Below, in pieces: positions 15,318 to 33,481 of a stretch of 37,216 nucleotides of DNA (positions are counted from its first letter, which is position 1; the number at the start of each line of letters is the position of its first letter). The translations under genes were made by a program, and so were the position numbers. Under the pieces are notes generated by a model, which saw only the letters and a program-made list of their open reading frames with translations, had not been told where the DNA came from and did not search any database. The DNA is from Oligoflexia bacterium (lineage in GTDB: Bacteria; Bdellovibrionota; UBA1018; CAIMNF01): assembly GCA_903845155.1 (NCBI GenBank), contig CAIMWN010000207.1, forward strand, positions 1-37,216, written 5' to 3'.

Positions 15318-15320
15318 CTG

Positions 15321-15812: not shown

Positions 15813-15870
15813 GGTTTTATTGTAGTTGGATTTTAGATGAGTGGTCAAGCGCTAGCGTGCTGTTAGGCAT

Positions 15871-15899
15871 TTGACGGGACAGGCGTTCACTGTTAATTC
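15871..15899 (+). promoter_or_regulatory. Promoter of the secreted histidine phosphatase
   Basis: TTGACG (15871-15876), 17 bases, TAATTC (15894-15899). The leader is short and carries AAGGGAG before the ATG at 15921. Confidence 0.5.
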
Positions 15900-15904
15900 A
15901 CTGT
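15886..15904 (+). repeat. Direct repeat TTCACTGT x2 overlapping the -10
   Basis: TTCACTGT-TAA-TTCACTGT: two exact eight-base copies with an 11-base period, one helical turn, spanning the -10 element. Placement suits a regulator that binds as a direct-repeat dimer. Confidence 0.4.
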
Positions 15905-15920
15905 AAGGGAGATTCTGAAC

Positions 15921-16490: not shown

Positions 16491-18121
16491 GTTTGATTCA
16501 CTCTCTGCGTGCAAGCTATCTTTTTCTGAAGCACGACAAAAACTCCGCAAAGCGTGAGCCAGAAAAAGAACTCAAATGGCGAGTTCTTTTTCCGCTTTTC
16601 AGGATCTTGCACAAATAAGCACGAGCCTCCGTCAGAGCTTCCGGGAGCAACCGTCACGGCTGTGCTGCTGTACTTAATGACCACGCCCGCGCTACTCGCG
16701 CTCGAAGCTCTCGGATTTCCATAAGTGTCGATGTAAGAGAAGGTGGTGCTATAGGTTCCGGCTGGAATGGAGGTTAAGCTCGCAGATAAAATATTACTGT
16801 TACTCGTAAGAGCTGCAGTGAGATCAAGATTAAAACTCGTTTGAGCGGAATCTTGGAGCGTGAGAACAATGGGTGCAGTAGTAAGGATCGAATTGAATAG
16901 AGTGAATTGCATGGAGCCAGACTGAGGGGTTTCGGGCGTTGAAAATTGGATAGGCAGAGTATCGGTATAGGTGGTGGAGGAGGCTGGGGCGATCAACGTA
17001 GGGGCGCCAGTGGACGTAATGGTATGAATGCTAATCGCCGCGTTGCTAGCGTGGGCGGATGGATTGTTGTAAATGTCTTGATAGGAAAATGTTGCGGTAT
17101 AGGTTCCATCAGGAATAGCCGTGGAGGATGCGGCTTGAATATTGCTGTTGTTGACGTGAGTGATGGGCTGAGAGAGGTCGAGGTTAAAGCTGCTGAGGCC
17201 TGAATCACTCAATTGGAGTGTAATGGTTTGCCCAGTGCCGCTTAAGAGACTTAAGGTCTTGGTGCCGGAGGTAGCCATTTCGGGAGCTGTAAAGTTGATG
17301 GGGAGGATATTGGTGTAGCTCGTGCTTGCAGCCGGATAGGTGAGGGTGGGTGTGAGCGTATTGTACTTGACCACCACTCCTGAATTGGTGGTTGTCGCAG
17401 CGGGATTCCCTAGAGAGTCACTATAAGTAAGTGAAACGGTGTAGGGTCCATCAGGAATGGAGTTTGCACTCGCACTGGCGAAATTCGCATTCGAGCCTAA
17501 ATTTGCGTTTGGATCGAGCATGAAGTCAGTCGAGGCACTGGGACTGAGCACGAAAGAATATGTTTGATTGGTGGAGGTATTGAGAAACGATAATTGCCGA
17601 CCTGATGATACGGCATCTGGAAAGTTATATTTGATGCGTATCGGATTGGAAGTAGTATAGGTGCCACTGCTTGAAGCAGGGTAGTTGAGAGTAGCCGGAT
17701 TGGTAGAGGTTTTAATGACTACGCCACCCAAGGTAGGTGTAGAGGTGGTGGTACCCAGGTGTTGGTAAGAGAGCTTCACGGTATAGGTGCCGTCTGGGAT
17801 ACTGGTGACCCCCTCCAGTACAGAACCAATTTGATTCCCGAGAAGGGGGCTCAAATTACCCGGAGCGATGGTAAAACTCTGAGAAAGTGAATTGTTTAAA
17901 ATCAAGGTACGAGTGACCGCGCCTGTAAATAGCAAGGTTACGGTCCCGCTCGTCGGGGTTTCAGAAATCGTATAGTTCACAGCTATGTTTGAATAATAGG
18001 TTGAGGCAGTAGGACTGGTCATAGTGACGGAAGCAAAAGTTGGTTCCGAGAATCCGATGAACAATAGGATTGCAATTCCGCTCTGAACTAATGACTTAAA
18101 TAGGAGAGAAGTTCTTTTCAT
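16487..18121 (-). CDS. Four-repeat surface protein with C-terminal anchor
   Basis: 544 residues. A signal peptide is followed by four tandem repeats of about 115 residues, each opening like TYPAASTSYTNILPINF and closing like SIPDGTYTVSLTYSDSLGNPAA. They are Ser/Thr-rich and beta-strand-like, resembling Ig-like or adhesin repeats. The C-terminus, SDGGSCLFVQDPEKRKKNSPFEFFFWLTLCGVFVVLQKKIACTQ, has a Gly/Cys motif, a hydrophobic helix and a basic end. This layout resembles the Cys-containing C-terminal sorting signals of other Gram-negatives, but the precise class is not recognised. A cell-surface anchored or exported adhesin is likely (inference). Stops of this gene and the phosphatase overlap. 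Confidence 0.8.
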   Translation of the reverse strand: MKRTSLLFKSLVQSGIAILLFIGFSEPTFASVTMTSPTASTYYSNIAVNYTISETPTSGTVTLLFTGAVTRTLILNNSLSQSFTIAPGNLSPLLGNQIGSVLEGVTSIPDGTYTVKLSYQHLGTTTSTPTLGGVVIKTSTNPATLNYPASSSGTYTTSNPIRIKYNFPDAVSSGRQLSFLNTSTNQTYSFVLSPSASTDFMLDPNANLGSNANFASASANSIPDGPYTVSLTYSDSLGNPAATTTNSGVVVKYNTLTPTLTYPAASTSYTNILPINFTAPEMATSGTKTLSLLSGTGQTITLQLSDSGLSSFNLDLSQPITHVNNSNIQAASSTAIPDGTYTATFSYQDIYNNPSAHASNAAISIHTITSTGAPTLIAPASSTTYTDTLPIQFSTPETPQSGSMQFTLFNSILTTAPIVLTLQDSAQTSFNLDLTAALTSNSNILSASLTSIPAGTYSTTFSYIDTYGNPRASSASSAGVVIKYSSTAVTVAPGSSDGGSCLFVQDPEKRKKNSPFEFFFWLTLCGVFVVLQKKIACTQRVNQT

Positions 18122-18180
18122 CTTTTAATGGTAGCAGCTGAGAAAGTGAAATCAAGGAAGAAGATGTCAGTTCTTTCCTA

Positions 18181-18209
18181 CAACTCCCTGTGGGTATGCT
18201 AGGGAGTTG
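18181..18209. promoter_or_regulatory. Inverted repeat in divergent intergenic region
   Basis: CAACTCCCT ... AGGGAGTTG, a perfect nine-base stem with an 11-base loop. No U-tract on either side. Just downstream TGCGGC...GCCGCA (about 18223-18242) forms a second stem. The 235-bp gap 18122-18356 holds the starts of two divergent secreted-protein genes and no coding region. Confidence 0.45.
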
Positions 18210-18246
18210 ACGGTCCAAAGAGTGCGGCAAAAGAGCGCCGCAGATA

Positions 18247-18299
18247 TTGACTTTATACACAAGCATTGTGTTGTAATTATCCTCTGAATCCCCTATTTT
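18247..18299 (+). promoter_or_regulatory. Promoter region of the 18357 gene with operator-like palindrome
   Basis: TTGACT (18247), then ACACAA-GCA-TTGTGT (18257-18271), a perfect 6+3+6 palindrome, then TTGTAA (18271-18276) with 17 bases to TATTTT (18294-18299). The second pair gives the better spacing. The palindrome would abut or overlap its -35 and could be an operator. Confidence 0.4.
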
Positions 18300-18356
18300 A
18301 CATTTCGTCGCCATAAGGGCGAAGCACTCAATAAAACGAAAGTAGGAAAAATTAAA

Positions 18357-19214
18357 ATGAAAAGTACCTTATTCTTATCCCTGACCTTACTCGCGCTTCT
18401 TGCGATTCAACCCCGCACCTATGCAAGTAGCCTGATTAGTCACGATGATATTATGGCAATTGAAGATCAGACCGATGTTCAAAGTGATGAAGTGAAAACC
18501 AGCCCAGAAACACTGTCTGTTGAAGAGGTGGTTGCTTCTACTGAAACTGGAAAGACAGCGATGAACTCAGACCACAAAAAATCCATATTCGCGATCCTGA
18601 AGTCATATCACCAATATAAAATCCACAATCGTGCGTTGGTTAAAAACTTTAAGCACAATTATCGTGCACTGAAAGCCGAGCTTCGTGATTCAAATTCAGA
18701 GCTTTCTCAGGCTATGGTTTTAGCGAAAAAAACTTGCGATTCTACTCCTGAGAGTTGTCGCCAAGCTTTCAATCAGTTGGTGAGAGCTCGCTTTGAAGCG
18801 AAAATGAATCCGCAATCAATTTCTTGGATTAACTATTTTCTGCCAAGTGCTCAGGCTGAAAGTAGCGGTTTCCTATTTCAAACTTGTACTTCAGGTAGTC
18901 TCAATGATAATGGACAGCAAAACGACCTTAATTTCCATGCTCTCTTTTTTGGAGCGCTCGACTACACTTGCGAATCGCGTGACTTTAAAATGAAAATATA
19001 TGGTCCAGGCTTATCCTATGAAGGATTAGGCATGTTCGGCATGGCATGTAGTTCTGATCAAGGTGGCAACAATGTTGGCTTGATCGCAGGCGCGAGCTTA
19101 GGTATTGGAGTAAAAACGGCGCTCACCATTGGTGACAGCGGCATTTGTACTTTGGTTGGTTTATCAGCCGGAGTTGGAGCGTACGCAGGCGTTGCCGTAA
19201 TGAAAATGAAATAA
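18357..19214 (+). CDS. Secreted hypothetical protein, Gly-rich C-terminus
   Basis: 285 residues. Signal peptide KSTLFLSLTLLALLAIQPRTYA. Residues about 60-160 are helical and charged (IFAILKSYHQYKIHNRALVKNFKHNYRALKAELRD), with Cys in KKTCDSTPESCRQAF. The C-terminal 100 residues are Gly-rich and hydrophobic (GLSYEGLGMFGMACSSDQGGNNVGLIAGASLGIGVKTAL...GVGAYAGVAV), which could be a beta-rich or membrane-associated domain. Family not recognised. AGGAAAA precedes the ATG, and a hairpin follows the stop. Confidence 0.78.
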   Translation: MKSTLFLSLTLLALLAIQPRTYASSLISHDDIMAIEDQTDVQSDEVKTSPETLSVEEVVASTETGKTAMNSDHKKSIFAILKSYHQYKIHNRALVKNFKHNYRALKAELRDSNSELSQAMVLAKKTCDSTPESCRQAFNQLVRARFEAKMNPQSISWINYFLPSAQAESSGFLFQTCTSGSLNDNGQQNDLNFHALFFGALDYTCESRDFKMKIYGPGLSYEGLGMFGMACSSDQGGNNVGLIAGASLGIGVKTALTIGDSGICTLVGLSAGVGAYAGVAVMKMK

Positions 19215-19232
19215 AAGCATATATTTTCTTTT

Positions 19233-19271
19233 ACTTGGGGAGTATCAATATTGATTGAATATTCCCCAAGT
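19233..19271 (+). terminator. Hairpin downstream of the 18357 gene
   Basis: ACTTGGGGAGTAT pairs with ATATTCCCCAAGT (13 pairs with one G-U). The following bases are only moderately T-rich (ATTGATTTCC), so termination may be weak. It lies between the 18357 gene and the regulator at 19408. The rest of 19215-19407 holds the regulator's promoter. Confidence 0.5.
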
Positions 19272-19369
19272 ATTGATTTCCATTCTGTTCAATTGATTCT
19301 GTTTATCCCGCCGAGCCGAATGAATCATTTGGATGTGGCAAAAAACGCCGCACACTGTTTACAAAAGCA

Positions 19370-19398
19370 TTGCACCGCGTTATCGCTTCTGTTATCAT
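19370..19398 (+). promoter_or_regulatory. Promoter of the TIGR02147 regulator, start predicted at the ATG
   Basis: TTGCAC (19370-19375), 17 bases, TATCAT (19393-19398). The expected start at about 19405-19408 coincides with the ATG at 19408; no Shine-Dalgarno sequence is present. An overlapping TTTACA-17-TATCGC is a poorer alternative. Confidence 0.5.
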
Positions 19399-19407
19399 GC
19401 CTTACCC

Positions 19408-20196
19408 ATGCAAGAAACTCCTTTCCACATTCAAGTGATCCGTGAGGCTCTCAGCAAGAGACAGAGATCTAATCCAGCGTACTCACTTCGTGCCTATAGC
19501 CGGGATATTGGCATGGACTCCTCAACCTTAAGTCAGGTCCTGAATGGTAAGCGATCCATTCCTGCAAAGAACTGTGAAGCAGTCACCAAAACACTTCGCC
19601 TTTCGCCAATACAAAAATTGAAGTTTCTAGAGAGCATCTCTAAAAAGAGAACGCTCCTCGATTCAATCTCCATCGCAAAACGTGAAGACCAGTTTCTCCT
19701 CAATGAAAGTCATTACCGAGTCATTGCTGAGTGGGAACATTACACAGCGCTCGCTTTTGCTGATCTCAAAGATGCAGTCATTAATATCAAGACCCTTTCC
19801 GAGCGGCTGGGAATTACCGCGCTTCGGGCGGAATCGGTGGTTCAAAACCTACTGAATTGTGGACTGCTTCGAGAAACTAAATCCGGAACTTATGAAAAAA
19901 CACATGAGTCTCTTCAAACCACGGAGGATGTTGCGTCCCCGGCCCTTCGTGAAGCCCATCTGGAAGCACTTGAGTTAGGTAAGCAAAAATTAGAATCGAT
20001 TGATCTTGAGCTACGCGATTATTCCTCCATTTGTTTTGCCGCAGATCCCGATCAATTGCCTGAGATAAAAATGATGATTCGTGAATTTCGAAAAAAAGTT
20101 TACGCCCTTACTAAAGCCGGCAAGAAAAAACGTGAAATTTATCAATTGGCTCTTCAGCTCTATCCGCTGACTAAAAAGAAAGCCCTGGGAAAATAA
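19408..20196 (+). CDS. TIGR02147 family protein with N-terminal HTH
   Basis: 262 residues from the ATG at 19408. The ORF track starts 25 codons earlier, inside the promoter. N-terminal PFHIQVIREALSKRQRSNPAYSLRAYSRDIGMDSSTLSQVLNGKRSIP is a Xre-like helix-turn-helix. It is followed by LRLSPIQKLKFLESISKKR and the C-terminal regulatory part (YRVIAEWEHYTALAFADLK, ITALRAESVVQNLLNCGLLRE, winged-helix-like; then SICFAADPDQLPEIKMMIREFRKKVYAL). This is the TIGR02147 pattern, frequent in Fibrobacter and Bdellovibrio relatives (memory-based). It ends two bases before the next ATG, so it probably controls or is co-expressed with that secreted protein. Ligand and targets are unknown. Confidence 0.88.
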   Translation: MQETPFHIQVIREALSKRQRSNPAYSLRAYSRDIGMDSSTLSQVLNGKRSIPAKNCEAVTKTLRLSPIQKLKFLESISKKRTLLDSISIAKREDQFLLNESHYRVIAEWEHYTALAFADLKDAVINIKTLSERLGITALRAESVVQNLLNCGLLRETKSGTYEKTHESLQTTEDVASPALREAHLEALELGKQKLESIDLELRDYSSICFAADPDQLPEIKMMIREFRKKVYALTKAGKKKREIYQLALQLYPLTKKKALGK

Positions 20197-20198
20197 AT

Positions 20199-21218
20199 AT
20201 GAAAGTAGCAAATCAACCACTTCCACGTGTCACTCGAATCACTGCTTTTGCGACAATCCTCTTTTTAGTGGTCTTCAATAGTTCAGAGGCCCGCGCCCAA
20301 GGGGATCGAGGAAACGGCGGCGACATCTATGCTCAGGAATATGCTGCAATTGCCGAGAAGATCTATAAGGCCGGATGCGAGACCACCAAGATCTTTGAAA
20401 GCATTCTTGATTGTAAAGTTTTTAAAGAGATGACGAGTGGTCTCACTCAGAAGCCAAATTATATCAAAGTGACGAGCGCGAAGATGGTTTATGGCCCTGA
20501 CAACAAGCCACGGGATGCAATTAATAATCCGGACGAACATAAAATCACCATCAGTCGTCTCAGTTGGCGAGATATGGTTGAGGTGAGTGCGCGCGTGGGT
20601 AATATTTCTCATGAATATGCCACGCTCTTGGGAATTGACTCTTCTGATGATTACCGCGGTTCAAATCAAATGATCGAAGCATTGAAAATTTCAAAGATCG
20701 ATTTAACTGCTCTTGCAACCGTCAAAGTGTTAGACACTACCCGTATTGATCTCTTTAATGCCGGTAAGGGCGCGATTGTTTGCGATTCTGAAACCAAGGA
20801 TGACTTTGGAAATGTTCGATATATTCGGTTTAATAATCAATCGTGGTCTTTCTATGGGGCGGTAATGGCGGGCTCAACATTCCTGGATGGTAACTCATGG
20901 GAACGACCTATAAATCAAATACAAGCAATTCAATATTATTACGATATTGAAGACGGTATTGTTAAGTTTCATACCTCCGGTGTCCAAACTGACAAAAGCG
21001 CAGGAAATTTCATTACCCTTGCTAATAAGAAAATGATGGCATTTGGAATAGAAGACGATAAATGGCAGGTGGTGATCGATTATAAAACACGGCTCTATCA
21101 GCACCGGTTCTCACCTGAAACCAAAGAAGTCATTAAGGCCCTTAATATTAATGGCAATGTAAAAACATCTGAAAATGGATATACAAAACTCCACTTTCGT
21201 AATTGTCATCTCGACTAA
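20199..21218 (+). CDS. Secreted GDRGNGGD-motif protein, coupled to regulator
   Basis: 339 residues. Signal peptide followed directly by RAQGDRGNGGDIYAQEYAAIAEKIYKAGC. A later segment VGNISHEYATLLGIDSSDDYRGS has an HE-x(n)-G-x-D-x-Y arrangement that the paralogue at 21479 shares as VLHELIGAAGI...DDHFFIS. The HE pair recalls metallopeptidase helices, but the usual HExxH is absent, so enzymatic function is unproven. Starts two bases after the TIGR02147 stop, with GGGA upstream. Such secreted partners next to TIGR02147 genes are typical of the group (memory). Likely periplasmic or extracellular. Confidence 0.8.
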   Translation: MKVANQPLPRVTRITAFATILFLVVFNSSEARAQGDRGNGGDIYAQEYAAIAEKIYKAGCETTKIFESILDCKVFKEMTSGLTQKPNYIKVTSAKMVYGPDNKPRDAINNPDEHKITISRLSWRDMVEVSARVGNISHEYATLLGIDSSDDYRGSNQMIEALKISKIDLTALATVKVLDTTRIDLFNAGKGAIVCDSETKDDFGNVRYIRFNNQSWSFYGAVMAGSTFLDGNSWERPINQIQAIQYYYDIEDGIVKFHTSGVQTDKSAGNFITLANKKMMAFGIEDDKWQVVIDYKTRLYQHRFSPETKEVIKALNINGNVKTSENGYTKLHFRNCHLD

Positions 21219-21478
21219 GAATGCATGGCTAACTGAGGCATCGTCGTTCATTGATATCAAACTGTACGACATCCATATGCGCTAATATGTGTAAATGGAA
21301 ATAATTTAATATTAGCTTCTAGCTAAGGCCTTGATGCTATCGTCGTTCTGTTTGTGGCGGCGTTCCGAGATTTGAGCTTGTTTGCTAACCTAACTCATTT
21401 ACACGATGTTTGTGTAAGAATCGCTATGCAAAGCCGAGTAACTGTTATAAGGTTCAGTGTCTAAACGGTAATTCGTAA
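21219..21478. other. Intergenic region between the two paralogues
   Basis: No credible ORF. Contains GTGTAAATG near 21289 and its complement CATTTACAC near 21398, a compact TTAGCT-TCT-AGCTAA hairpin near 21313, and two copies of ATCGTCGTTC about 100 bases apart. These suggest folding or binding sites but could be chance. No promoter stands out; TATAAG at 21446 is a possible -10. Confidence 0.3.
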
Positions 21479-22651
21479 ATGAAAAAAATATTGCTCAATA
21501 TCACCCGAATTCTTTTTGGCCTCAGTGTTTGCATTGCGATCAGCAGTAATGCAAATGCGCAGGGGAATGCAGGCGACCGTGGCGGAGGTGATCCGTATGC
21601 CGCCGAGATTTATCATTTAAGTACAGGAATTGGCAAGAAGTTAAGGACCTGGACTACGGCCGGAATCCTCAAGCTCACCGAAAATCAATTGGCAAACATT
21701 GAAAAACTGGTGGGCTTGAATCGTTTATCAAGGGTTCAAAGGGGAACACTCACTGTTTACAGTTTTGATCATGTCTACCGGTATCCAGAGTTGTTGCCGT
21801 CACCTGAAGCAGATGAGGTTACGTTGGTGAACGTGTATCGGCATCATCCGCCCCGCATTGAAGTGGGAAGAGTCCGCTGGGATGCCTTGAAGGGTGAGAA
21901 TATCGAAAAGGAAATGATGGTCTTGCATGAACTCATTGGAGCGGCGGGAATTCTTAAGCATGGAAGACGCTTGGATGATCACTTTTTTATTTCTTATGAA
22001 TTGAAGTTAAAATCCCAGCGCGAGTGGATTGATTTCAAAAAACAATTGAAGTCTGATTTAATAGCGATTCATTCGTTTAACAATCATGAGTTATCTTTTA
22101 CTAGTAGTGAAAAATTTAAATTTTTCGGACAAGCAATTGAATCTTCACCAGATTATGACCTGGTGTTGAATCCCCCATCTCAAAAAGAGCGAATGGAGTC
22201 TTATCATCGGGTGCAAAATTGGGTCAAAAAAAGTTTCAAAGGTTTCTTAGGCGAAGAAGCAGACCCGCTCACTTCAGCTGATCAAGCCAAGCTTCAATCC
22301 TTCGCCGACGATTTAAGCAAGCTTGCTTTACTAAGTCACCCAACTTGGAATTCTTGGGCGCAAACAATATACGATTCATATTCTAGAAAGTTTGGGCTGC
22401 TTAAGATCAGGCACTTCTTTCAGACAACGAAAATTAATGGCGGAAGTGCATGGCTTTATGATTTGCAACTTGCCTGTGATAATGCGGGGGATTTGGATGT
22501 GATTCTGAAGTGCTATGTTCGCAAACTGCAAGATGGAATGACCATGGTAACTCGGGTCGGATTGGACGATTCTAATGGTGAGTTGGACCGAGAGCTTTAT
22601 AACATCCTAGACCAAATAGCACTTAAAGTTTCTCCTGATGATTTGAATTAG
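21479..22651 (+). CDS. Secreted GDRGGGD-motif paralogue
   Basis: 390 residues. Signal peptide, then NANAQGNAGDRGGGDPYAAEIYHLSTGIGKKLRTW, the same mature N-terminus as the 20199 protein. Shared later motif MVLHELIGAAGILKHGRRLDDHFFISYELKL, in which the HE pair sits in a predicted helix followed by D-D-x-F/Y. The C-terminal half is longer than in the paralogue and has one Cys pair (LACDNAGDLDVILKCY). No clear ribosome binding site precedes the ATG, whose choice rests on the signal peptide. It has its own 260-bp upstream region rather than being fused to the regulator operon. Function unknown. Confidence 0.8.
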   Translation: MKKILLNITRILFGLSVCIAISSNANAQGNAGDRGGGDPYAAEIYHLSTGIGKKLRTWTTAGILKLTENQLANIEKLVGLNRLSRVQRGTLTVYSFDHVYRYPELLPSPEADEVTLVNVYRHHPPRIEVGRVRWDALKGENIEKEMMVLHELIGAAGILKHGRRLDDHFFISYELKLKSQREWIDFKKQLKSDLIAIHSFNNHELSFTSSEKFKFFGQAIESSPDYDLVLNPPSQKERMESYHRVQNWVKKSFKGFLGEEADPLTSADQAKLQSFADDLSKLALLSHPTWNSWAQTIYDSYSRKFGLLKIRHFFQTTKINGGSAWLYDLQLACDNAGDLDVILKCYVRKLQDGMTMVTRVGLDDSNGELDRELYNILDQIALKVSPDDLN

Positions 22652-22758
22652 CCTAGATTCACGTATAAATTCCTTCAATGATTACATGATGTGTCGTCTT
22701 TGACCTGCAATTTACCCAAGCCCAAAGCGAAAGATGTGGTATTTACACAATGTTAGAA

Positions 22759-22777
22759 TATAATATTTCAAAGGGGG
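22759..22777 (+). promoter_or_regulatory. -10 element and ribosome binding site of the NHL lipoprotein
   Basis: A consensus TATAAT (22759-22764) and AAAGGGGG (22770-22777) precede a TTG start at 22783. No good -35 is visible. The upstream region 22652-22758 is otherwise featureless. Intact expression signals in front of an interrupted gene suggest recent damage. Confidence 0.45.
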
Positions 22778-22782
22778 CTCAT

Positions 22783-23970
22783 TTGAGAAAAAATGTTTTT
22801 ACTTTTATTAAATTCAATGGCTCTCTTGTCTATTTATTATGTTTGGCAAGCATGCTTCCCTCTTGCAGCCGTATTAAAATATTTGGCTCAAATAACACTG
22901 GAGGCGGCGCTCCTACGTGATCACCTGAAGTAACAATTAGCTCAGATTTTTTACTCATTGCTGATACTAGAAATAATGTGGTCCGGAAATTGGTTTATTC
23001 CACAGGAGTCATTACTACCTTTGCAGGAACAGGTGCCGCGTCTTATAGCGGGGATGGCGGGCTTGCCACTCAAGCGACATTTACTACGCCTTCATCTATC
23101 GTCACGGACAGTTCTGGTAATACCTATATTGAAGACAGTGATAATCAAGTGATTCGAAAAATTGATTCAAATGGTATCATCACTACTATTGCAGGCGTGG
23201 CGGGCAATGGTGACTGGTCAGGGGATGGTGGGCTTGCCACTGCTGCCCATATTGGAAACCCCACTCAACTCGCTTTGGACAATTCAGGTAATTTACTCTT
23301 TGTTGACTACAACAACTGCGTACTCAGAAGCATAAACCTGAGTACAAGCATAATCTCCACACTTGCAGGTGATCACAATTGCCAAATAGCAAACTCAGGC
23401 GATGGTGGCCTAGCGACGGCGGCCAGTTTTTACGACCCGCATGGTGTGGTAGTAGATACTTTAGGAAATATTTATATTGCCGATGTAGGGAGTCTCATTA
23501 GAAAAATTGACGCCAATACAGGAATAATTAGCACCTATGCAGGTACCTACAACAATCCTGGATACACAGGTGACGGAGGACTTGCCAGTGCGGCACTCCT
23601 TAATGCGCCCGTTTGGTTGGCTGTTGATCGATATAATAATCTTTACATTGCAGACAGCGGAAATAGCTCGATTCGAAAAGTTGATTACAATACCAAAATT
23701 ATCACTACGGTCGCAGGTACAGGAGTTTCGGGGTACGCCGGTGATGGCGGCCTTGCTGTAAATGCACAACTCAGTGGTCCTTTTGGAGTCGTCTTTAATC
23801 AGGCAGGTGATCTGATTATTGCAGACACTTCAAATAATGTGGTTAGAAAAGTGGATAGTTCAACCGGTATCATCAACACCATTGCAGGGAACGGCATTCT
23901 TGGCTACACCGGTGATCATGGCCAGGCAACGAGCGCAGAACTTAACCAACCTTGGGGTGGCCCTATTTAA
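22783..23970 (+). pseudogene. NHL-repeat beta-propeller lipoprotein interrupted by in-frame TGA
   Basis: From the TTG at 22783 the frame encodes a lipoprotein signal peptide (SLVYLLCLASMLPSC), a GSNNTGGGAPT linker, then a TGA at 22918-22920. The same frame continues as SPEVTISSDFLLIADTRNNVVRKL and six copies of a repeat with GDGGLAT and YIAD-GN--IRK motifs, the NHL/propeller pattern. The ORF-track start (GTG, 22978) is the Val-Val inside a repeat motif, not a start, and the body has no ATG codon. The C-terminus stops at LNQPWG, which could complete the first blade by velcro closure, so the 3' end may be natural. A nonsense mutation or a sequencing error are the main readings; readthrough is possible but unsupported. 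Confidence 0.8.
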
Positions 23971-25399
23971 AACTGATCCGATTCATTCGATTAGGGATCA
24001 GTTGCCGTTCGCGGCCATTTTGAACTTTAGTAATCCAACCTTGATTTACCCAGTGGGTGCATAAGGTATGAGTCTGTGTCCGTTTTAGGTGATAAAAGTT
24101 TTGCACCTCTCTGAGCGTTGTTTTCTCTTGAAGATCAAAGATGCTCGGGCGAGGTTCTTGGTTAAGCACTTCAACCGAAATTTGGTTCGCGTCCTCTTGA
24201 GTTAAATAAAGATTCTCTTTTTCAATACTGACTTTTAATTGGTAGTGCTGGCGAAGGCGTTTCGCTAATTGCTGAATTCGGTTTTCTAGAAACAAATAGC
24301 TACCCATATCGTCAGGCCACAGCAAAGTCGCTGCTCGATTCAATGGTAGTCCCTGGCCCTGCGATGCCACGATGTAGCCCAGTAGCTCCAATTCTTTAGG
24401 TAAATAGGCTTGATGAATTTTTCCCGTTCGATGTTCCTTTCGAAAATTTGAAATCCAAAGAGACTCATTTTGCGATAGTAGGGTAAAGGTGTGGGGGCAT
24501 ACATAGCGTTCAGTAAATCCCGGCATGAGGCCTGGATAGGAGTAGAGGAGCGAGTCATCTTTCGATTCCATGCCAACTTTCTTCATCCAATAAATACAGT
24601 CAAGCCATACTTCTGGCCGGTTTTCTGGTTTTTTGAGAATCTGAATGGCCTGTTGAAAAAACTGGGAAGCCTCGTTTTTTTTACCCTTGATCTCAGCATG
24701 GGCCACGCCGAGCCACTTCATAATAAAGCCATGGTCGAAAGAACGGTCGCTTTTTGAGAAATAGGGTAGCCCCTGATTGAGCGCTTTAATTGCGGGCGTC
24801 TTATTCCCCATGCGCGCATGATATTCACCTTCCACTTGAAACAAAATGCCTTGAAGTAAGGACTCGTCTTTTTTAGCGCTAATTTTTTTTAGACGACGAA
24901 AAGCTTCCTCATGGTCGCCCATGCCGCTTAGGGCATCGCAGGTAGCAATTCTTCCTAAACGAGCGGCGTAGGTTTCGGGGCTGGGATCACACTTTTCGGC
25001 TTTCAAGAATAGCGGGAGTGCGCGAGCGCTGTTAAAATTAGAAAGATAAATATTCCCGAGCACGCGCAAGTCTTCAGAACTATTAAGTTCGGGAAGCGAT
25101 TCGCAAATTTTTAAAGCATAGTGGGGCGCGCCCATGAGGTTGAGTATTCTAGCGGTCCAAAGGTGTTGACGTAAGTCGTTTTGATTTGAGTTTGAGTATA
25201 TCACTAACTTTTTTGGAGCGATCACTCGATAGGCGCGTTTAAAGTCGCCTAATCTCCTGTACCAATCACAAGCTTGAATCAAGGCGCTCGGTTTTTTGTG
25301 CTGCTTTTTGAGCCAGAGCTGAATGGCGCTTACTGCTTGGGGCTGGCGTCGGTTTTGAACTAAGGATTCAATGAAAAGGGTTGATGGTGGGTTCTTCAT
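23963..25399 (-). CDS. TPR protein with C-terminal winged-helix domains, putative regulator
   Basis: 478 residues from the ATG at 25399 (the ORF-track start is a GTG seven codons up). Residues about 1-290 are TPR-like helical pairs (LRVLGNIYLSNFNSARALPLFLKAEKCDPSPETY, KTPAIKALNQGLPYF, KNEASQFFQQAIQIL). About 335-400 (AYLPKELELLGYIVASQGQGLPLNRAATLLWPDD...LENRIQQLAKRLRQHYQLKVSIEKENLYL) matches an OmpR/SARP-type winged helix. A second winged helix follows (TTLREVQNFYHLKRTQTHTLCTHWVNQGWITK...RERQLIP). No signal peptide, so cytoplasmic. The order is the reverse of AfsR-like proteins, which carry the DNA-binding domain first. The 3' end overlaps the NHL gene by eight bases. Targets unknown. Confidence 0.75.
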   Translation of the reverse strand: MKNPPSTLFIESLVQNRRQPQAVSAIQLWLKKQHKKPSALIQACDWYRRLGDFKRAYRVIAPKKLVIYSNSNQNDLRQHLWTARILNLMGAPHYALKICESLPELNSSEDLRVLGNIYLSNFNSARALPLFLKAEKCDPSPETYAARLGRIATCDALSGMGDHEEAFRRLKKISAKKDESLLQGILFQVEGEYHARMGNKTPAIKALNQGLPYFSKSDRSFDHGFIMKWLGVAHAEIKGKKNEASQFFQQAIQILKKPENRPEVWLDCIYWMKKVGMESKDDSLLYSYPGLMPGFTERYVCPHTFTLLSQNESLWISNFRKEHRTGKIHQAYLPKELELLGYIVASQGQGLPLNRAATLLWPDDMGSYLFLENRIQQLAKRLRQHYQLKVSIEKENLYLTQEDANQISVEVLNQEPRPSIFDLQEKTTLREVQNFYHLKRTQTHTLCTHWVNQGWITKVQNGRERQLIPNRMNRISFK

Positions 25400-25611
25400 T
25401 TCTAGGATGATATCGCACACGTTCAGTATTTCACAGTATAATTTTTATCGGGGTGCATGTATTTTATAAATCATTCTTGTTTAAATAACAAGTTCATCAA
25501 TTGATGGATCGGGTAAAGTGAATGAAGTCCAACTTTGCTCGGGATTATAAAGGATTTCGAAACGCGATTCTGAAATGAATCAATCATTCACTGTTTAAAG
25601 GGTAAGAGTTT

Positions 25612-26169
25612 ATGCTCTTTAAGTTGACAGTGCTTATATGGGAAGAAGCCACTATTGTGTATAAGACAATATCATTGCTAGTATTTATTTTTTCTCCTCT
25701 CGCATTATCTCAAACCCAATCTTACCAGTCAGCTTTGGTGTGTGTAGGTGGCGACAGTAAAAGATTTGGAATTGAAGAAAAACCTAATGGAATTTGTGCT
25801 AATGCTGTGTTGCGATCATCTAAGGAAAGAGAGCTTTCAAATTTCGATCTAAAATTTAATCATGATAATCCGCACTTTGATAAAAATGACTTTACTCCTT
25901 ATGATGCAAGCACATTAGAAAAAAGCTTTCTTCCAAAACGATTTGGTGGCTATACGCCGAAACAGTTATGTAAAATTATTGGGCCAATCGTCCAACCTGG
26001 CTTTAGTTTTTATGGTGTAAAATCAAAAAAGGGAATCGAGCTAAAAATTATACGTTCGCATAATCGCTACTCAGAGTTAATTAATAAGTCTAAATACTTG
26101 GATACGGTTCATTGTGAAGCGAAAGAGCTTGTGCAGGATGAATACGTTAAAAATGCTATTAACTTCTAA
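25612..26169 (+). CDS. Secreted hypothetical protein, possibly truncated by an in-frame stop
   Basis: 185 residues. AAAGGG lies nine bases before the ATG. A hydrophobic segment (YKTISLLVFIFSPLALSQ) acts as the signal peptide after an unusual charged extension (MLFKLTVLIWEEATIV); a GTG at 25657 is an alternative start. The mature part has Cys in LVCVGGDSK, NGICANAV, KQLCKI and VHCEAK. It ends at TAA 26167-26169. The same frame stays open for 75 more codons (NIKLMVESEYGVICKDPAI...LGVPPDFLRR) with further Cys. That suggests one original gene of about 260 codons. Family not recognised. Confidence 0.6.
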   Translation: MLFKLTVLIWEEATIVYKTISLLVFIFSPLALSQTQSYQSALVCVGGDSKRFGIEEKPNGICANAVLRSSKERELSNFDLKFNHDNPHFDKNDFTPYDASTLEKSFLPKRFGGYTPKQLCKIIGPIVQPGFSFYGVKSKKGIELKIIRSHNRYSELINKSKYLDTVHCEAKELVQDEYVKNAINF

Positions 26170-26181
26170 AATATCAAACTT

Positions 26182-26394
26182 ATGGTCGAAAGTGAATATG
26201 GTGTAATATGCAAAGATCCAGCGATCATCAAGCAAGATCTTTCATATCATTCTTCAAAAAATATTAACCTAGAATCACAATGTTGGGATCCCATAGTAAA
26301 ATCCTACGTCATTATTCGCAGTTCAATGAATAATGAGGCTGGGAACGCAACATTTATGGTTTTAGGTGTTCCACCTGATTTTCTAAGAAGGTAG
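26182..26394 (+). pseudogene. Probable 3' remnant of the 25612 gene
   Basis: 70 codons in the same frame as the 25612 gene, separated from it only by one TAA and four codons. The ATG has no ribosome binding site. The composition (VICKDPAI, ESQCWDPIVKSYVIIRSS) looks like the C-terminal part of a secreted Cys-containing protein. A separate small gene is the alternative. Confidence 0.4.
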
Positions 26395-26483
26395 AACTAC
26401 TAAATTTGCGTTGAAAATAAAGCGATGAATTAAAGACCTGCAGTAGTTTTAAAGAATGGAAAATGAATGTGCGAGGATAAAGA

Positions 26484-26600
26484 ATGCAAATTTTGAATGA
26501 AATAATATCACCTATTCAAGAAATAAGGATCGAGATGTCAAGTTCATGGTTTCAGCCTATTAACCCTGATGAAGCGACATTCTCATACCTATTTAAATGA
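26484..26600 (+). CDS. Possible 38-residue small protein
   Basis: Too short for the ORF track. ATG with GAGG seven bases upstream, then MQILNEIISPIQEIRIEM and SSSWFQPINPDEATFSYLFK. The rest of 26395-26721 holds no other gene; the GGAGAAG of the next gene is at its end. The small size gives little coding evidence, and it may be a remnant. Confidence 0.25.
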   Translation: MQILNEIISPIQEIRIEMSSSWFQPINPDEATFSYLFK

Positions 26601-26721
26601 AAGATTCATGATCTTAGTCTAGGTCAACCCAGATATGCCGCGTTAGAAATAAAATGAATTTCACATCACTACATCAAAGCAAGATGAGTGATCGGGTAAG
26701 GAAATATTGAACGGAGAAGTA

Positions 26722-27975
26722 ATGATCATCAAAATTTTGTTAAGTAGCATCATGCTCTGCTTAGGTCGGGGCGAGTTTGCCTTTGCACTTACTGATCCTC
26801 CGCCCATCAAAGCAAAAAGGGTAATTAACCGCGCTTTACACGAGTGGGAGTCTCAGCAAGTTGAAGAACCGTGTGTGCTGGTTAATCCTAAGAATCCAAA
26901 TCAGTTAATTATGTTTTATTCTGGTGTTCCCGCTTCAAATCAGTCGAAGGCCTATATCGGTAAGGCATGGGCTTCAGTAGACGCTCCTTTGGATTGGCAT
27001 GAAGATAAACAAAATCCGATTTTTAAACCAAGTGAGGATGGCTGGGATTCAGGTTCGATTCGCCTTGATTCTGTAGTGTATGTTGCAGAAGAAGATTCTT
27101 ATTATATTTATTATTCGGGTACCCAAGGTGCGATTCAAGATCGGATCGGTTTAGCGATCGTTCCGGCAGGTGCAGATGGATATTCCGGCATTACGCCGAG
27201 AAAAATACTGCGCTATGATTCAAAACCCGTTCTCGTGCCTGAAAATTATTCTCCCTTCAACGAAACTATGGTGTCACAAGGGGCAGTGATGCGCGAGTGG
27301 AATGTAAGTACTTCTAAGTGGGAATGGTACATGTATTATTCTTACCGCGGCACGGATGGCGTTTTGCCTGGAATTAGGCTTGCGTTTTCTCGTGATGGGA
27401 AACGTTGGTCTAAGCGGTATAATTTTGCTGATCCACAAGGGATGGGGCAAATTTTTACTTCTACCTCCGGCGCCTATTATGAATGGCATCAAATTTTTAA
27501 AGTAGGTTCAACCTATGTCCTCAGTATAGAAGTGGGTCCACATCATGGTGAGCGATGGCGCGCAGTCTTTGCTGCGAGTTTAACCCCAACAAAGGGTTGG
27601 CAGCAATTAGAGATCGATACCGCTTTGCAAACTAAATGGGCCGGTCTCTATAGTGATCAATATTTTTATCATGTAGCAACGCCCGCGCTTTATCAGGTCA
27701 AGGGTAAGTGGTATCTGTTTGTTCAAGCAGCTGCTCGCCCTGATTCAGGCAATTATATTGATGGGCGTTGGGATCTATGGGTAATTGAAAGCAGTCAGGC
27801 CGTTTCAAGCATCCCCGGTGGCGATACTCTCTTTATACCAGAAGGGAGAGATTCTGAATCTGTGCCTAGTGAAGTAGTCGCTCCACCCATGAGGAAGGTT
27901 TATCGTTCCGAGCCTGAGCCCGTAAAACGCAAAAAATTTTTTGAAAAAATATTTGGTTCTAAAAATGAGCCATAA
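26722..27975 (+). CDS. Secreted five-bladed propeller, GH43/GH32-like
   Basis: 417 residues. The ATG at 26722 has GGAGAAG just upstream; the ORF-track TTG precedes it by five codons. Signal peptide IIKILLSSIMLCLGRGEFAFA. Blade-like repeats: NQLIMFYSGVPASN, DSYYIYYSGTQGA, WEWYMYYSYRGTD, GIRLAFSRDGKRWSKR and GKWYLFVQAAARPD, the YYSG/AxSxDGxxW pattern of the five-bladed glycoside hydrolases and their relatives. NPIFKPSEDGWDSGSIRLDS resembles a substrate-side loop. I cannot confirm the catalytic carboxylates, so it may bind rather than cleave glycans. The C-terminus is basic (PVKRKKFFEKIFGSK). It is the first gene of a cassette with a tectonin-like lectin and a second propeller. Confidence 0.75.
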   Translation: MIIKILLSSIMLCLGRGEFAFALTDPPPIKAKRVINRALHEWESQQVEEPCVLVNPKNPNQLIMFYSGVPASNQSKAYIGKAWASVDAPLDWHEDKQNPIFKPSEDGWDSGSIRLDSVVYVAEEDSYYIYYSGTQGAIQDRIGLAIVPAGADGYSGITPRKILRYDSKPVLVPENYSPFNETMVSQGAVMREWNVSTSKWEWYMYYSYRGTDGVLPGIRLAFSRDGKRWSKRYNFADPQGMGQIFTSTSGAYYEWHQIFKVGSTYVLSIEVGPHHGERWRAVFAASLTPTKGWQQLEIDTALQTKWAGLYSDQYFYHVATPALYQVKGKWYLFVQAAARPDSGNYIDGRWDLWVIESSQAVSSIPGGDTLFIPEGRDSESVPSEVVAPPMRKVYRSEPEPVKRKKFFEKIFGSKNEP

Positions 27976-28071
27976 AATAAAACATGCCTCTGATAGAGCC
28001 CTTGTGCTGCACTGGCCCTGTTAGAAAAAAATATCAAATAACCATTAATAAATAAAAAAGGAATAAAGAAA

Positions 28072-28818
28072 ATGAAGAAGATAATGTTAATCGTAAGTTT
28101 AAGTTTAGGTGTGGTGGGTTTAAATCCCTCTGTTTCTCACGCTCAGAGTTTGCCGGGTAAAGTTGCTGCGCGAATTTCAATCGATGGAGCAAATAGTTAT
28201 CAGATATCGGGCGGCCAGGTATTGAAAAATGGGACTCAAATCACTATAGGTGGCTCTGTTTCTGAAATTGTGGTCAAGGAGGGTTATGTTTATGGCCTGG
28301 GTGATGATGGTGCGGTTTATGGAATGATGGATGGTAATGACTGGAGCAGGCTAACGTCAGGTGACGGAGCGGTATCTCAATTTTCAGTGACTCCAGATCA
28401 TAAAATTTGGGGTATTGGCTTTGATGGAAATCTCTATGTAGCCTCAGCAAGCTCTGAATGGGCAAGAGCAGATAATTCTTCTTCTGCAGTGCCCGGTTTG
28501 CCTGGGAAAGCCGCACGCCAAGTCGTAAAAGAAGGTGCATACGTTTATAGAGTCCATGAGGGGCAAGTGTTCTTGAATGATCGGCAAGTATCGATTGGTG
28601 GTTTCGTTACCGAGATAACAGTAAGAGAGAATACGATTTATGGCCTAGGCACGGACGGTTCTATCTATTCGATGACCCCAAACGCAAACTGGAATAATAT
28701 TACACCTACCGGCGCAGTCACTCATTTTTCAGTAGATCAAGAAGGTCAATTGTGGGGAACTGGTTTTGATGGAAACTTATACTCTGCTTATCCATACAAT
28801 GCATGGGTGATGCATTAA
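28072..28818 (+). CDS. Secreted tectonin-like beta-propeller protein (lectin-like)
   Basis: 248 residues, signal peptide KKIMLIVSLSLGVVGLNPSVSHA. Two tandem copies of about 115 residues: LPGKVAARISIDGANSYQIS...ITIGGSVSEIVVKEGYVYGLGDDGAVYGM...KIWGIGFDGNLYVA and LPGKAARQVVKEGAYVYRVH...VSIGGFVTEITVRENTIYGLGTDGSIYSM...QLWGTGFDGNLYSA. The IWGIGFDGNLY blocks match tectonin/tachylectin-type blades, which bind sugars such as GlcNAc or LPS (family knowledge). AAAGGA precedes the ATG and a strong hairpin follows. Position between two propeller hydrolase-like genes suggests a shared glycan target (inference). Confidence 0.72.
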   Translation: MKKIMLIVSLSLGVVGLNPSVSHAQSLPGKVAARISIDGANSYQISGGQVLKNGTQITIGGSVSEIVVKEGYVYGLGDDGAVYGMMDGNDWSRLTSGDGAVSQFSVTPDHKIWGIGFDGNLYVASASSEWARADNSSSAVPGLPGKAARQVVKEGAYVYRVHEGQVFLNDRQVSIGGFVTEITVRENTIYGLGTDGSIYSMTPNANWNNITPTGAVTHFSVDQEGQLWGTGFDGNLYSAYPYNAWVMH

Positions 28819-28846
28819 TTCGGTACTGGCTTTAAATTTAGTGAAT

Positions 28847-28887
28847 GCCTCGATTTCACGACGTGGAATCGGGGCAATTGTTTTCTT
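28847..28887 (+). terminator. Intrinsic terminator after the tectonin-like gene
   Basis: GCCTCGATTTCAC-GAC-GTGGAATCGGGGC folds as a 13-base stem (two G-U pairs) with a three-base loop, then AATTGTTTTCTT. It separates the tectonin-like gene from the second propeller gene. The rest of 28888-29105 holds no gene; TTGAAT (29028) with TAAAAA (29051) is a weak promoter. Confidence 0.75.
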
Positions 28888-29105
28888 AGGGCCCGATTAT
28901 TTAACGCCCACCTCATTCAGCTATCGCACTTTATTAATCTAGAATGAATTCGAGTCATACTAAAAAGATGCTCAATGAGATTCATGGAATAGTCGAAAAC
29001 CACCTTAGATTTAGATTAGTGCACTACTTGAATTCATAATTATTAATACATAAAAACTATTTAGCAATGGAAACTCCAGCCAAAATCGAGTATCATCAAC
29101 GAATT

Positions 29106-30152
29106 ATGAATTCACCCTTGAGTTTAGTGTTCATAATGTTTTCCATGGTAACGCCCGGGCTTGCCATTGCCCAAAATACTTCTATCACTGCATTTAGTCA
29201 GTGGAGCAAACACACCGGCGGTCCTGTGCTCGAAGCATCTCAAGAGTGGGAGCACAATAATATTGAAGATGGCAGCACCATCAAGGTGAATGATACTTAC
29301 TACCGTTTCTATTGTGCCGGGCTCACTTACAATAACAGCATTTGGGGTATCGGTTATGCAACTGCCACTGCTGAAGGTTTTCCAAAAGTCTGGAAAAAAT
29401 ATGCTAGAAATCCACTGTTTGGAAATAATGGCGCCGACGAACAAGCTCCGGCTGCACCAAGGGTAATTCAAATGCCCAACGGTAGTTTTCGCATGTATTA
29501 CCATAGCTGGAACGGCAAAACTGATATTGGACGAATGGCGGTTGCAAGTAAAGCTGGTTTTCCTAACACCTGGACTCGCACCAAAAAAATAATCTTAGCC
29601 CCAGATCCAATGAGCTGGGATAACGAGCAAATTCAAACACAAGACTTTATCCCACCGTGGGCGCCCACACCTGACGGGCTTTGGCACATGTTTTATGGCG
29701 GCTACAACGGGAAAAACTGGCGGGGGGGACATGCTACTTCCGTGGACGGAATTAATTGGAACAAGGATTCTGCGAATCCAATCCTGCCTTTAGGAAATCA
29801 CTCTTGGGATGAGCAGGGCGCGCTTCCACTGGGATGGACTTTGATAGATGGAACTTATTACATTACTTATCAAGGTTACGATGGTGATAAGTGGCGAATC
29901 GGGTTCATGACCACGCGAGATTTTAAACACTTTGACAGGAAAGCTACGCCCATTTTAGAGGAGGGCTTTAGTGGTAGTTGGGATTCCTCTGGAATTGAAG
30001 GGGTGGACATTTATAACGAACCATCTTTAGGACGACTCATAATGTTTTATGTCGCCGCACATGCCGTAAACTCCTCACAAGTGGGTAACGATCAATACCG
30101 AATGGGGTTCGCAACATTTCCGATTGCAAACAGTATAAGCAAACATCCTTAA
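29106..30152 (+). CDS. Secreted five-bladed propeller, GH43/GH32-like (second)
   Basis: 348 residues from the ATG at 29106, chosen because the signal peptide NSPLSLVFIMFSMVTPGLAIA starts there; the ATG at 29067 would add 13 residues. Blades: TYYRFYCAGLTYNNSIWGIGYATA, FRMYYHSWNGKTDIGRMAVASK, LWHMFYGGYNGKNWRGGHATSVDGINWNKD, TYYITYQGYDGDKWRIGFMTTRDFKHF and RLIMFYVAAHA. The repeating NPI/NPL-WD elements (RNPLFGNNGADEQAP, NPILPLGNHSWDEQGA) are the substrate-side Asp/Glu-containing loops of this fold. Enzyme or lectin-like binder is open. No good ribosome binding site. Distantly similar in pattern to the 26722 protein. Confidence 0.75.
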   Translation: MNSPLSLVFIMFSMVTPGLAIAQNTSITAFSQWSKHTGGPVLEASQEWEHNNIEDGSTIKVNDTYYRFYCAGLTYNNSIWGIGYATATAEGFPKVWKKYARNPLFGNNGADEQAPAAPRVIQMPNGSFRMYYHSWNGKTDIGRMAVASKAGFPNTWTRTKKIILAPDPMSWDNEQIQTQDFIPPWAPTPDGLWHMFYGGYNGKNWRGGHATSVDGINWNKDSANPILPLGNHSWDEQGALPLGWTLIDGTYYITYQGYDGDKWRIGFMTTRDFKHFDRKATPILEEGFSGSWDSSGIEGVDIYNEPSLGRLIMFYVAAHAVNSSQVGNDQYRMGFATFPIANSISKHP

Positions 30153-30264
30153 AGAATGGGTTGGAGAGGTGTGGTCGTACAGCTCATTTACTTTCGGTTG
30201 CCATCTCTATTAAGGCAGTTTGACGCATGAATGGATCGCCTCCGCTCATCACTCATCAACGCGC

Positions 30265-31068
30265 CTATTTCACTCCCACCACATAAGCAATAAACGACTG
30301 ACTGTGGTTGGCGGCTTCTGCAGGCAAGTATTCCCCTTGCCACTTTCCTTTTTCATCGGTCTTTTCCCAGAGGACGAGCGTTTTTTTGAAGCCCGCGTCC
30401 ACTAGGATTTCACGGAGCTCCCTGATCTCCCAAATTCGCCAATGGTAAGTGAAGGCATCATTGATGATGAGTTGGCCTGGGAGTTTGAAGTGAATCGAAA
30501 AATCGCTCACCTGGGTGATGGGGTCGTATTGGTGTTGTTCCCATACTTGTTCGACTTTTCCGATCCCGGGTGCTTGAAGTGTTTTTGATTCGTAGCAGGC
30601 TTCCTTAAATCCTTCGCCACCTGCGATTTCAAGAAAAAAGGTTCCGTGATTTTTTAAGGATTGACATGCCGCCTTCGCATACTTCAGAAGTTGCTTTCGT
30701 TCATGAAAAATAAAGTAGGAGAAATTGTAAGCTCCAATAAAATCAAACTTTTCGCGCGTAGGTTTCAGGACATCTTGCTTGATGAAGGTCACGCGTTTCT
30801 TTTCACTGGCAGAAAGGGCATCCTGATTTACATTTTTTGCGTAGGCGAGTACTTCAGGGTCCAGATCCAGTCCTACTGCTTTGTTCTTTGGAGAGCGCTT
30901 CACCCATTCGCACGAAATTCTACCCGTGCCGCAAAAGTCCTCGCGCATGAGAGTAGGGGGCTTGCCAATGAGCCAGGTATGAAACTGAGGAAGATAGTCG
31001 ACTTGCCAGTTTGGGCTTTGGACGGCGAGTTCATAAAGCTTAAATTTTGAAATAGGTGATTTGGCCAT
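30265..31068 (-). CDS. Class I SAM-dependent methyltransferase
   Basis: 267 residues, cytoplasmic. Motif I is LMREDFCGTGRISCEWVK (about 40-57), the acidic residue binding SAM ribose is in AVGLDLDPEVLAYAK, and VTFIKQDVLKP and FDFIGAYNFSYFIF form the following strands. The C-terminal half has HWRIWEIRELREILVDAGFKKTLVLWEKTDE, typical of small-molecule methyltransferases. Substrate unknown. It is read from the minus strand; the protease upstream has a terminator, and this ATG has no Shine-Dalgarno sequence, with a TAACAA-like -10 close upstream. The region 30153-30264 holds no gene. Confidence 0.85.
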   Translation of the reverse strand: MAKSPISKFKLYELAVQSPNWQVDYLPQFHTWLIGKPPTLMREDFCGTGRISCEWVKRSPKNKAVGLDLDPEVLAYAKNVNQDALSASEKKRVTFIKQDVLKPTREKFDFIGAYNFSYFIFHERKQLLKYAKAACQSLKNHGTFFLEIAGGEGFKEACYESKTLQAPGIGKVEQVWEQHQYDPITQVSDFSIHFKLPGQLIINDAFTYHWRIWEIRELREILVDAGFKKTLVLWEKTDEKGKWQGEYLPAEAANHSQSFIAYVVGVK

Positions 31069-32186: not shown

Positions 32187-33419
32187 TTAAGCAAAAGACT
32201 TTGTTTCTCGTTTGATCCAAACCAGGGCAAGAATGAAGACAGTAATGGCACCAATATAAAATGGAAGTTGTACTTTAAGTCCAAAAGCTAAGAGCCCGCA
32301 AAATGGACCGAATATCCGAGCAAGACTTCCCATGCCTTCTTTCACTCCAATGACTGCGCCTTGCTCGTGGTCAGCAGCACGTTTTGAGGTCAACGCTGCA
32401 AGGGAAGGGTTAATGAGCCCCGAGCCAAATGCGAGCGGAATTGCAGCTAAAAAGAAAGCGCCATAAGTAGGGCTATGCGAAAAAAGGATCATCGCAAGAC
32501 CTTGAGTGAAGAGTCCGACGATGACTAATTTCACTTCACCGTATTTGGGCACTAGTTTTCGAATCAATCCACCTTGTACAACAGCACCTAAAATGCCAGA
32601 CCACATCAGCACCATTCCGCTTTTGAGGCCCGCTTGCTCGGTAGAAAGGGCGAATTTACTTTGAATCAGAAGTGAGAAAACTTGTTCAAGATTTGAGAAT
32701 GCAAAAGTTGCGAAGAAAGTTGAAACGACCGGAAGAACAAGAGAGCGATCTTTTGCAATTCGTTTAAAGGTTTCAAACTGGGCAAGGCGGGCGCTCTTGC
32801 CATGCTCTTTGTTCGCGAGGTTCTTCTCTCTAATTGCAGGCGAGAGGCTTTCGTCTAAGCGAAAGTACGCAAGAATTAAGTTCAGAGCACAAAAACTACC
32901 CGCAATGATTCCAGGTGCTGCTAAGCCCAGCTTTGCTGCAGAAATTCCACCGAGCGGGGGCCCAAGGGTAAAGCCAATTCCGAAGGCCGCACCAATGAGG
33001 CCCATGCCCTTGGCGCGATCCTTTGCTTCGGTGACATCAGCAATATAAGCCTGAGCCGTAGAGATATTAGCCGCAAAAATACCCGCTAATGCCCTAGAGA
33101 AGATCAGGAGTGGGATATTGTCGGCAAAGGCGAACAAAAAATAAGAAAAGACTGAACCCGCAAGCGACATTAAAATAATGGGTCTGCGGCCCACGCGATC
33201 AGATAAGCGACCCCAGATCGGCGAGAAGAAAAATTGCATGAGTGAATATATCGAACCGAGCACCGCAAGTTGGAGAATGGAAGCACCATAATGGCGGCCA
33301 TAGATACCCACCAAAGGGATAATAATCCCAAAACCAATGAGGTCAAAGAACACGGTCGTGAAGATCACGAGGAGGTGGGATTTTTTAGCTTTTGGCTTTG
33401 GATTAGTCTCAGTTTGCAT
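32187..33419 (-). CDS. MFS transporter, tetracycline-efflux-like (TCR/Tet family)
   Basis: 410 residues from the ATG at 33419; a TTG seven codons up is less likely. About 12 hydrophobic segments. N-terminal VIFTTVFFDLIGFGIIIPLVGIYGRHYGA is the Tet-type first helix with its conserved Asp. SPIWGRLSDRVGRRPIILMSLAGS is the MFS loop 2-3 motif A. IADVTEAKDRAKGMGLIGAAFGIGFTLGPPLGG is motif C/antiporter-like, and a central loop is charged. Probably a proton-coupled inner-membrane exporter of small molecules; the substrate is unknown. Divergent from srkA with 62 bases between starts. No terminator with a clear U-tract after the stop; 32041-32186 is AT-rich with weak inverted repeats. Confidence 0.88.
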   Translation of the reverse strand: MQTETNPKPKAKKSHLLVIFTTVFFDLIGFGIIIPLVGIYGRHYGASILQLAVLGSIYSLMQFFFSPIWGRLSDRVGRRPIILMSLAGSVFSYFLFAFADNIPLLIFSRALAGIFAANISTAQAYIADVTEAKDRAKGMGLIGAAFGIGFTLGPPLGGISAAKLGLAAPGIIAGSFCALNLILAYFRLDESLSPAIREKNLANKEHGKSARLAQFETFKRIAKDRSLVLPVVSTFFATFAFSNLEQVFSLLIQSKFALSTEQAGLKSGMVLMWSGILGAVVQGGLIRKLVPKYGEVKLVIVGLFTQGLAMILFSHSPTYGAFFLAAIPLAFGSGLINPSLAALTSKRAADHEQGAVIGVKEGMGSLARIFGPFCGLLAFGLKVQLPFYIGAITVFILALVWIKRETKSFA

Positions 33420-33481
33420 TTGTAATTTAGCTTCTAACAAACTTAGGCGTGACCAGCAATTTTAATGTACGCTTCTTCTTA

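Follow-up and report, generated by a model that had tools for sequence, protein, structure and literature searches.

In the GH117 anhydro-galactosidases a histidine serves as the acid. The GH43/clan GH-F glycosidases (arabinanases, xylosidases) use a catalytic set of Asp, Asp and Glu (PMC9278983), and a GH43-like enzyme with an altered third residue is still active (PMC11022575). GH130 has one invariant aspartate, which is D142 in BT3780 and is required for the activity of that enzyme (PMC4599007). Animal tectonin domains bind LPS (PMC2707011), and Bdellovibrio recognises prey glycans with other folds, which is a loose parallel only to the locus described here (PMC10769870).

We analyzed three consecutive genes within a stretch of 37,216 nt from an Oligoflexia bacterium of the phylum Bdellovibrionota (referred to as the window). 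The models of the first and the third gene product (genes 1 and 3) share their fold with the GH43/clan GH-F glycosidases (E around 1e-10). However, the identity of gene 1 over the structurally matched region is only 9–16%, Pfam gives no GH43 match for it, and it carries Glu, Gln and His at the inferred catalytic positions instead of Asp, Asp and Glu. Gene 3 resembles GH130 in that it passes the cut-off of PF04041 and its profile matches beta-1,2-mannobiose phosphorylase, but the match covers only part of the Pfam model and D142 of BT3780 has no acidic counterpart in the alignments obtained. Regarding GH117, a match to 4ak6 (1.9e-21) was obtained with the profile that includes gene 3, and gene 1 has an inner-strand His as well as a QEPC motif that resembles HDPC of 3p2n, although gene 1 and 3p2n do not match significantly (E 0.069) and the ring residues differ. 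Gene 2 is similar to the six-bladed lectins of the tectonin/tachylectin-1 type, being above the Pfam cut-off, and the other tectonin of this genome, from a second locus, reaches 69.7 bits with six similar blades; unlike those lectins, gene 2 has a diverged two-times-three-blade form and is bacterial and putatively secreted. An earlier note on this DNA had combined the three genes into one secreted cassette. According to our analysis, the pair of gene 1 and tectonin is better supported than this three-gene arrangement.

Genomic organization of the locus

Genes 1, 2 and 3 are consecutive open reading frames on the plus strand, located at 26722–27975 (417 aa), 28072–28818 (248 aa) and 29067–30152 (361 aa), and no transporter or regulator is located between them; both points agree with the earlier note. 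Gene 1 starts with the ATG at 26722, upstream of which a GGAG ribosome site is present, and for gene 3 we found an alternative start just before the signal peptide (ATG at 29106, M14; 348 aa). The N-terminal signal peptide that had been noted for all three proteins was seen by eye in genes 1, 2 and 3 alike, and all of them are probably exported. In gene 1 it comprises MIIKILLSSIMLCLGRGEFAFA (26722–26790, judged by eye), with a helix at residues 2–15 of the model. The gap between genes 1 and 2 (27976–28071) has a length of 96 bases and contains a hairpin of -15 kcal/mol, which is no plus-strand terminator because A and not T comes after it. The gap between genes 2 and 3 has a length of 248 bases, and here, 3' of gene 2, a hairpin with a stem of 14 pairs (28846–28876, -21.2 kcal/mol, z -2.65) is followed by a T-rich tail. 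From this terminator-like hairpin it follows that gene 3 is probably a separate transcription unit.

All three genes belong to an accessory stretch (13701–31068) between rfaE and the trypsin/MFS genes, which further contains genes for a polysaccharide deacetylase, Ig-like, TIGR02147, NHL and other exported-looking proteins. The TIGR02147 protein agrees with the Bdellovibrionota affiliation that the earlier note had guessed. In eight genomes of the genus with both genes in view, rfaE and the MFS gene lie no more than about 3 kb apart, in some of them with the trypsin gene in between. In the window, rfaE (12574–13602) and the MFS gene (32187–33440) are 18.6 kb apart, and the stretch of about 18 kb is absent at that site in the eight genus relatives. 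Contamination of the contig was rejected, as rfaE, the MFS gene, the APH-like and aaRS genes and the gene at 36735 match genus relatives at about 45–76% in a conserved order. A plasmid origin was rejected as well, with no match of genes 1 or 2 in plasmids and only 24%-identical glycosylases matching gene 3, and so was a phage origin, with no match of genes 1 and 3 in viral contigs and no PHROG or PADLOC match. Two further genes of this stretch were recorded. The NHL-repeat propeller gene at 22756–23970 has a frame upstream of its GTG start (22978) that heads to a signal-like N-terminus and is cut by an in-frame stop, and this gene is possibly decayed or interrupted. The region 25612–26169 encodes an exported-looking protein of 185 aa that could be assigned to no family, with a G+C content of 35% compared to 43–48% in the neighbours. 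The size of the window genome is 4.3 Mb, compared to 2.1–3.4 Mb in eleven genus relatives.

Gene 2 encodes a tectonin-type protein

The description of gene 2 as a two-repeat tectonin-like protein was borne out: it reaches 31.3 bits with the Pfam model Tectonin (PF19193, cut-off 30), and its two halves of ~110 residues each align to each other with a score of 255. Each half shows three blade-like repeats of ~35 residues by eye, adding up to six, where the count is based on the sequence and not on a folded protein. Within the phylum, tectonins at an E-value of 1e-6 are found in 5 of 291 genomes, the window genome included. Synteny across Bdellovibrionota, which the earlier note had proposed as a check, was not observed, since the tectonins of the other phylum genomes stand alone and none of them has a gene 1-like propeller beside it.

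Gene 1 encodes an uncharacterised five-bladed propeller

For gene 1 no family match was obtained in Pfam and NCBIfam at E-values up to 1, and none in PHROG and PADLOC. The AlphaFold2 model, calculated from an alignment of 22 rows, is a five-bladed propeller with a mean pLDDT of 80.4. Using Foldseek we observed structural matches to GH43, GH62, GH32 and GH130 enzymes (best E 6.5e-11), and the top matches are GH43 with a target-normalised TM of about 0.6–0.7. Gene 1 thus shows the fold of GH43, but not a sequence match to its family models. One polar residue is located near the start of each inner strand, resulting in a ring of E49, D116, Q186, H256 and T320, and these five positions are invariant in all 20–21 informative sequences, across phyla, consistent with a conserved active or ligand site. 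By blade order the catalytic set of clan GH-F maps to E49, Q186 and H256, in a register inferred from the model strands and the sequence and not from a residue-level superposition. In this inferred register the Asp base, the Glu acid and the third Asp of GH43 were not found on the inner strands, and Gln and His stand where GH43 has Asp and Glu. Where GH117 has its catalytic set of Asp, Asp and His, gene 1 carries E49, Q186 and H256, at the inferred blades I, III and IV.

Gene 3 encodes a GH130-like propeller

Gene 3 matches the Pfam model Glyco_hydro_130 (PF04041) with 35 bits at a cut-off of 26, and the best stretch comprises profile positions 70–140 of 320. Against the NCBIfam model of beta-1,2-mannobiose phosphorylase gene 3 itself is far under the cut-off, whereas a profile of gene 3 and distant relatives matches this phosphorylase at 5.4e-27. 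The model of gene 3 is five-bladed as well, but weaker than that of gene 1 (mean pLDDT 65.7, with higher values in the core), and its best structural matches in Foldseek are BT_0996, BT_4094 and BACOVA_03624 (E around 1e-10). Both genes had been described as five-bladed and GH43/GH32-like, of which the fold stood; a family match is missing for gene 1, and gene 3 has its match in GH130 and not in GH43 or GH32. The invariant Asp of GH130 (EDPR-type motif) has no acidic counterpart in gene 3 in either register considered, that is, GALPLG in the Pfam/phmmer register or AAPRV with the blades in order (by eye), where the propeller repeats leave some doubt about the register. Of the catalytic Asp/Glu residues, for which structure prediction had been suggested, the GH43 set was not seen in gene 1 and the GH130 Asp was not seen in gene 3, in the registers considered. 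The earlier idea that a lectin and two glycosidase-like propellers trim a glycan holds insofar as the proteins belong to carbohydrate-related superfamilies, but as the propellers do not keep the usual catalytic residues, trimming itself is unproven.

A comparison of the gene 1 and gene 3 profiles with hhalign shows homology (98.8%, E 4.5e-17), and gene 3 matches relatives of gene 1 at 25–31% in 25 of the 26 loci described below. As judged from these sequence comparisons, the two genes are distantly related to each other by descent. A circularly permuted GH43/GH130 as the origin of gene 3 was suggested by a two-blade shift between separate local hits, but was rejected, as the rotated blades score no better against five sets of relatives. 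Two other propellers of this kind were recorded. In another genome of the phylum (G145), the region L011:1273-3645 encodes a large protein whose N-terminal half is rich in repeats and whose C-terminal part is a propeller similar to GH130 and gene 3, and a second GH130-like fragment on contig C293 of the window genome has ordinary neighbours and no link to the locus.

Gene 1 and tectonin are paired twice in the same genome

Only two loci of the gene 1 type and two of the tectonin type are present in the window genome, and both times a gene 1 and a tectonin are neighbours. At the second locus the tectonin, which has six regular repeats, directly adjoins the gene 1 copy and is transcribed divergently from it, so that the orientation of gene 1 relative to the tectonin differs between the two loci. 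If about 4,000 genes were placed at random, the second adjacency would have a chance near 2 in 4,000. On the tree, both gene 1 copies are located on long branches and group as sisters (97/95). As these sister copies are only 65% identical, the pairing appears to have persisted through a long divergence, during which the orientation changed. The second gene 1 copy is split, with its N-terminal part on contig C174 and its C-terminal part on contig C23. At the break we observed the 9-base target repeat TTTGAAGAT on both sides, imperfect inverted ends, and end sequences that are each present in about ten genomic copies, from which we conclude that the element is an insertion sequence. Its ends are located at L013:1-122 and L014:4754-4852 (contigs C23 and C174, respectively), and C174 is bounded by the insertion sequence on both sides. 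Being interrupted by a multicopy insertion sequence, the second gene 1 copy is dispensable. No gene 3 was found on C174 or C23. Of the proposed linkage, the neighbourhood of gene 1 and tectonin is hence retained and the membership of gene 3 is not. The three-gene cassette could not be upheld, given the terminator-like hairpin between genes 2 and 3, the absence of gene 3 at the second locus and the lack of the trio in the other genomes searched, and including gene 3 as a third member is over-extended.

Relatives of gene 1 in other genomes

We scanned 84,980 species genomes for conserved peptides and found 26 gene 1 loci at 54–67% identity, nearly all of them in Verrucomicrobiota, with one in Hydrogenedentota and one in a genome labelled Proteobacteria. 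The peptides were those conserved between gene 1 and the paralogue from its own genome, and as only members with the exact peptides are detected, the distribution of the family may be wider. The closest relatives found are single genes, mostly from Verrucomicrobiota. Within the phylum of the window genome, 2 of 369 genomes matched, the second one with 35% over 78 residues, and close copies are present in the window genome only. At none of the 26 loci in other bacteria was a tectonin found nearby, where at least 1.5 kb were visible on both sides in 17 cases. Unlinked genes elsewhere had been named beforehand as evidence against the arrangement; outside the window genome the genes are indeed unlinked, since these 26 loci lack a tectonin and the phylum tectonins lack the propeller. 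The sampled neighbours of the verrucomicrobial homologues are ordinary genes (GH77, URO-D, MFS, GGT, GlnD, M24, BipA and CysRS). A polysaccharide utilisation locus around them was rejected, as these neighbours show no sign of one.

Possible explanations for the pairing

The explanation that we tentatively prefer is that a secreted six-bladed tectonin-type lectin (gene 2) and a five-bladed GH43/GH130-like propeller (gene 1) form a linked pair acting on one glycan, next to gene 3 as an independent neighbour. The tectonin would most likely bind a glycan on other cells or an exopolysaccharide, gene 1 would bind or cleave the same glycan in a central funnel lined by E49, D116, Q186, H256 and T320, and the two proteins would cooperate outside the cell. 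Gene 3 may have joined the pair by accretion in the accessory gene stretch, and it would be transcribed separately and act independently. Against the coupling it counts that the pairing is seen in one genome only, where the duplication of an ancestral pair would amount to a single event. It is also possible, if somewhat doubtful, that accretion explains the whole locus, with three unrelated genes for exported proteins that gathered here and each act alone, and with the second pair as a leftover of duplication. The hairpin setting gene 3 apart is consistent with this, as are the lack of a gene 1–tectonin pair in every other genome searched, the absence from eight genus genomes of a region that holds other exported-looking proteins, and the broken member of the second pair. 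Accretion accounts less well for a pair that was kept in two orientations despite the divergence of its copies, and for the adjacency of two families that are both rare in the phylum at the thresholds used.

Another reading, which we regard as unlikely, takes genes 1 and 3 for propellers without catalytic activity that would bind sugars like gene 2 and serve as adhesins or envelope lectins. The replacement of Asp and Glu of GH43 by Gln and His in gene 1 (register inferred) and the missing acid in gene 3 at the invariant GH130 Asp of BT3780 argue for it, but gene 1 keeps an invariant polar ring that includes Glu, Asp and His, and His is known as an acid from GH117. The activity of the GH43-like enzyme in which the third residue differs (PMC11022575) points in the same direction. 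It is very improbable that the three genes encode a single glycan-degrading system in one operon. They are adjacent on the same strand, all are exported as judged by eye, and genes 1 and 3 have related folds; however, a terminator-like hairpin and a gap of 248 bases precede gene 3, the second locus lacks gene 3, uptake genes are missing, and the trio is absent from every other genome searched. Returning to the linked pair of genes 1 and 2, a more far-reaching version seems rather improbable to us: the gene 1 family would comprise undescribed secreted five-bladed glycosidases whose active site is an E/D/Q/H/T ring, found mainly in Verrucomicrobiota and coupled in this lineage to a secreted tectonin lectin, the two proteins forming a unit directed at a glycan of other cells.

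Implications

We know of no described bind-and-cut pair made of two secreted propellers, and a narrow literature search (Bdellovibrio with tectonin) yielded no described case of such a pair. The pairing of a lectin with an uncharacterised exported propeller family, seen twice in one genome, is suggestive, and genes 1 and 2 may act jointly on extracellular sugars. Should the lectin and gene 1 indeed cooperate, they would constitute a simple secreted bind-and-cut pair of two propellers. The gene 1 family is strongly conserved and apparently exported and has no name in Pfam or NCBIfam, so that an assay on any verrucomicrobial member could provide a functional assignment for many genomes.
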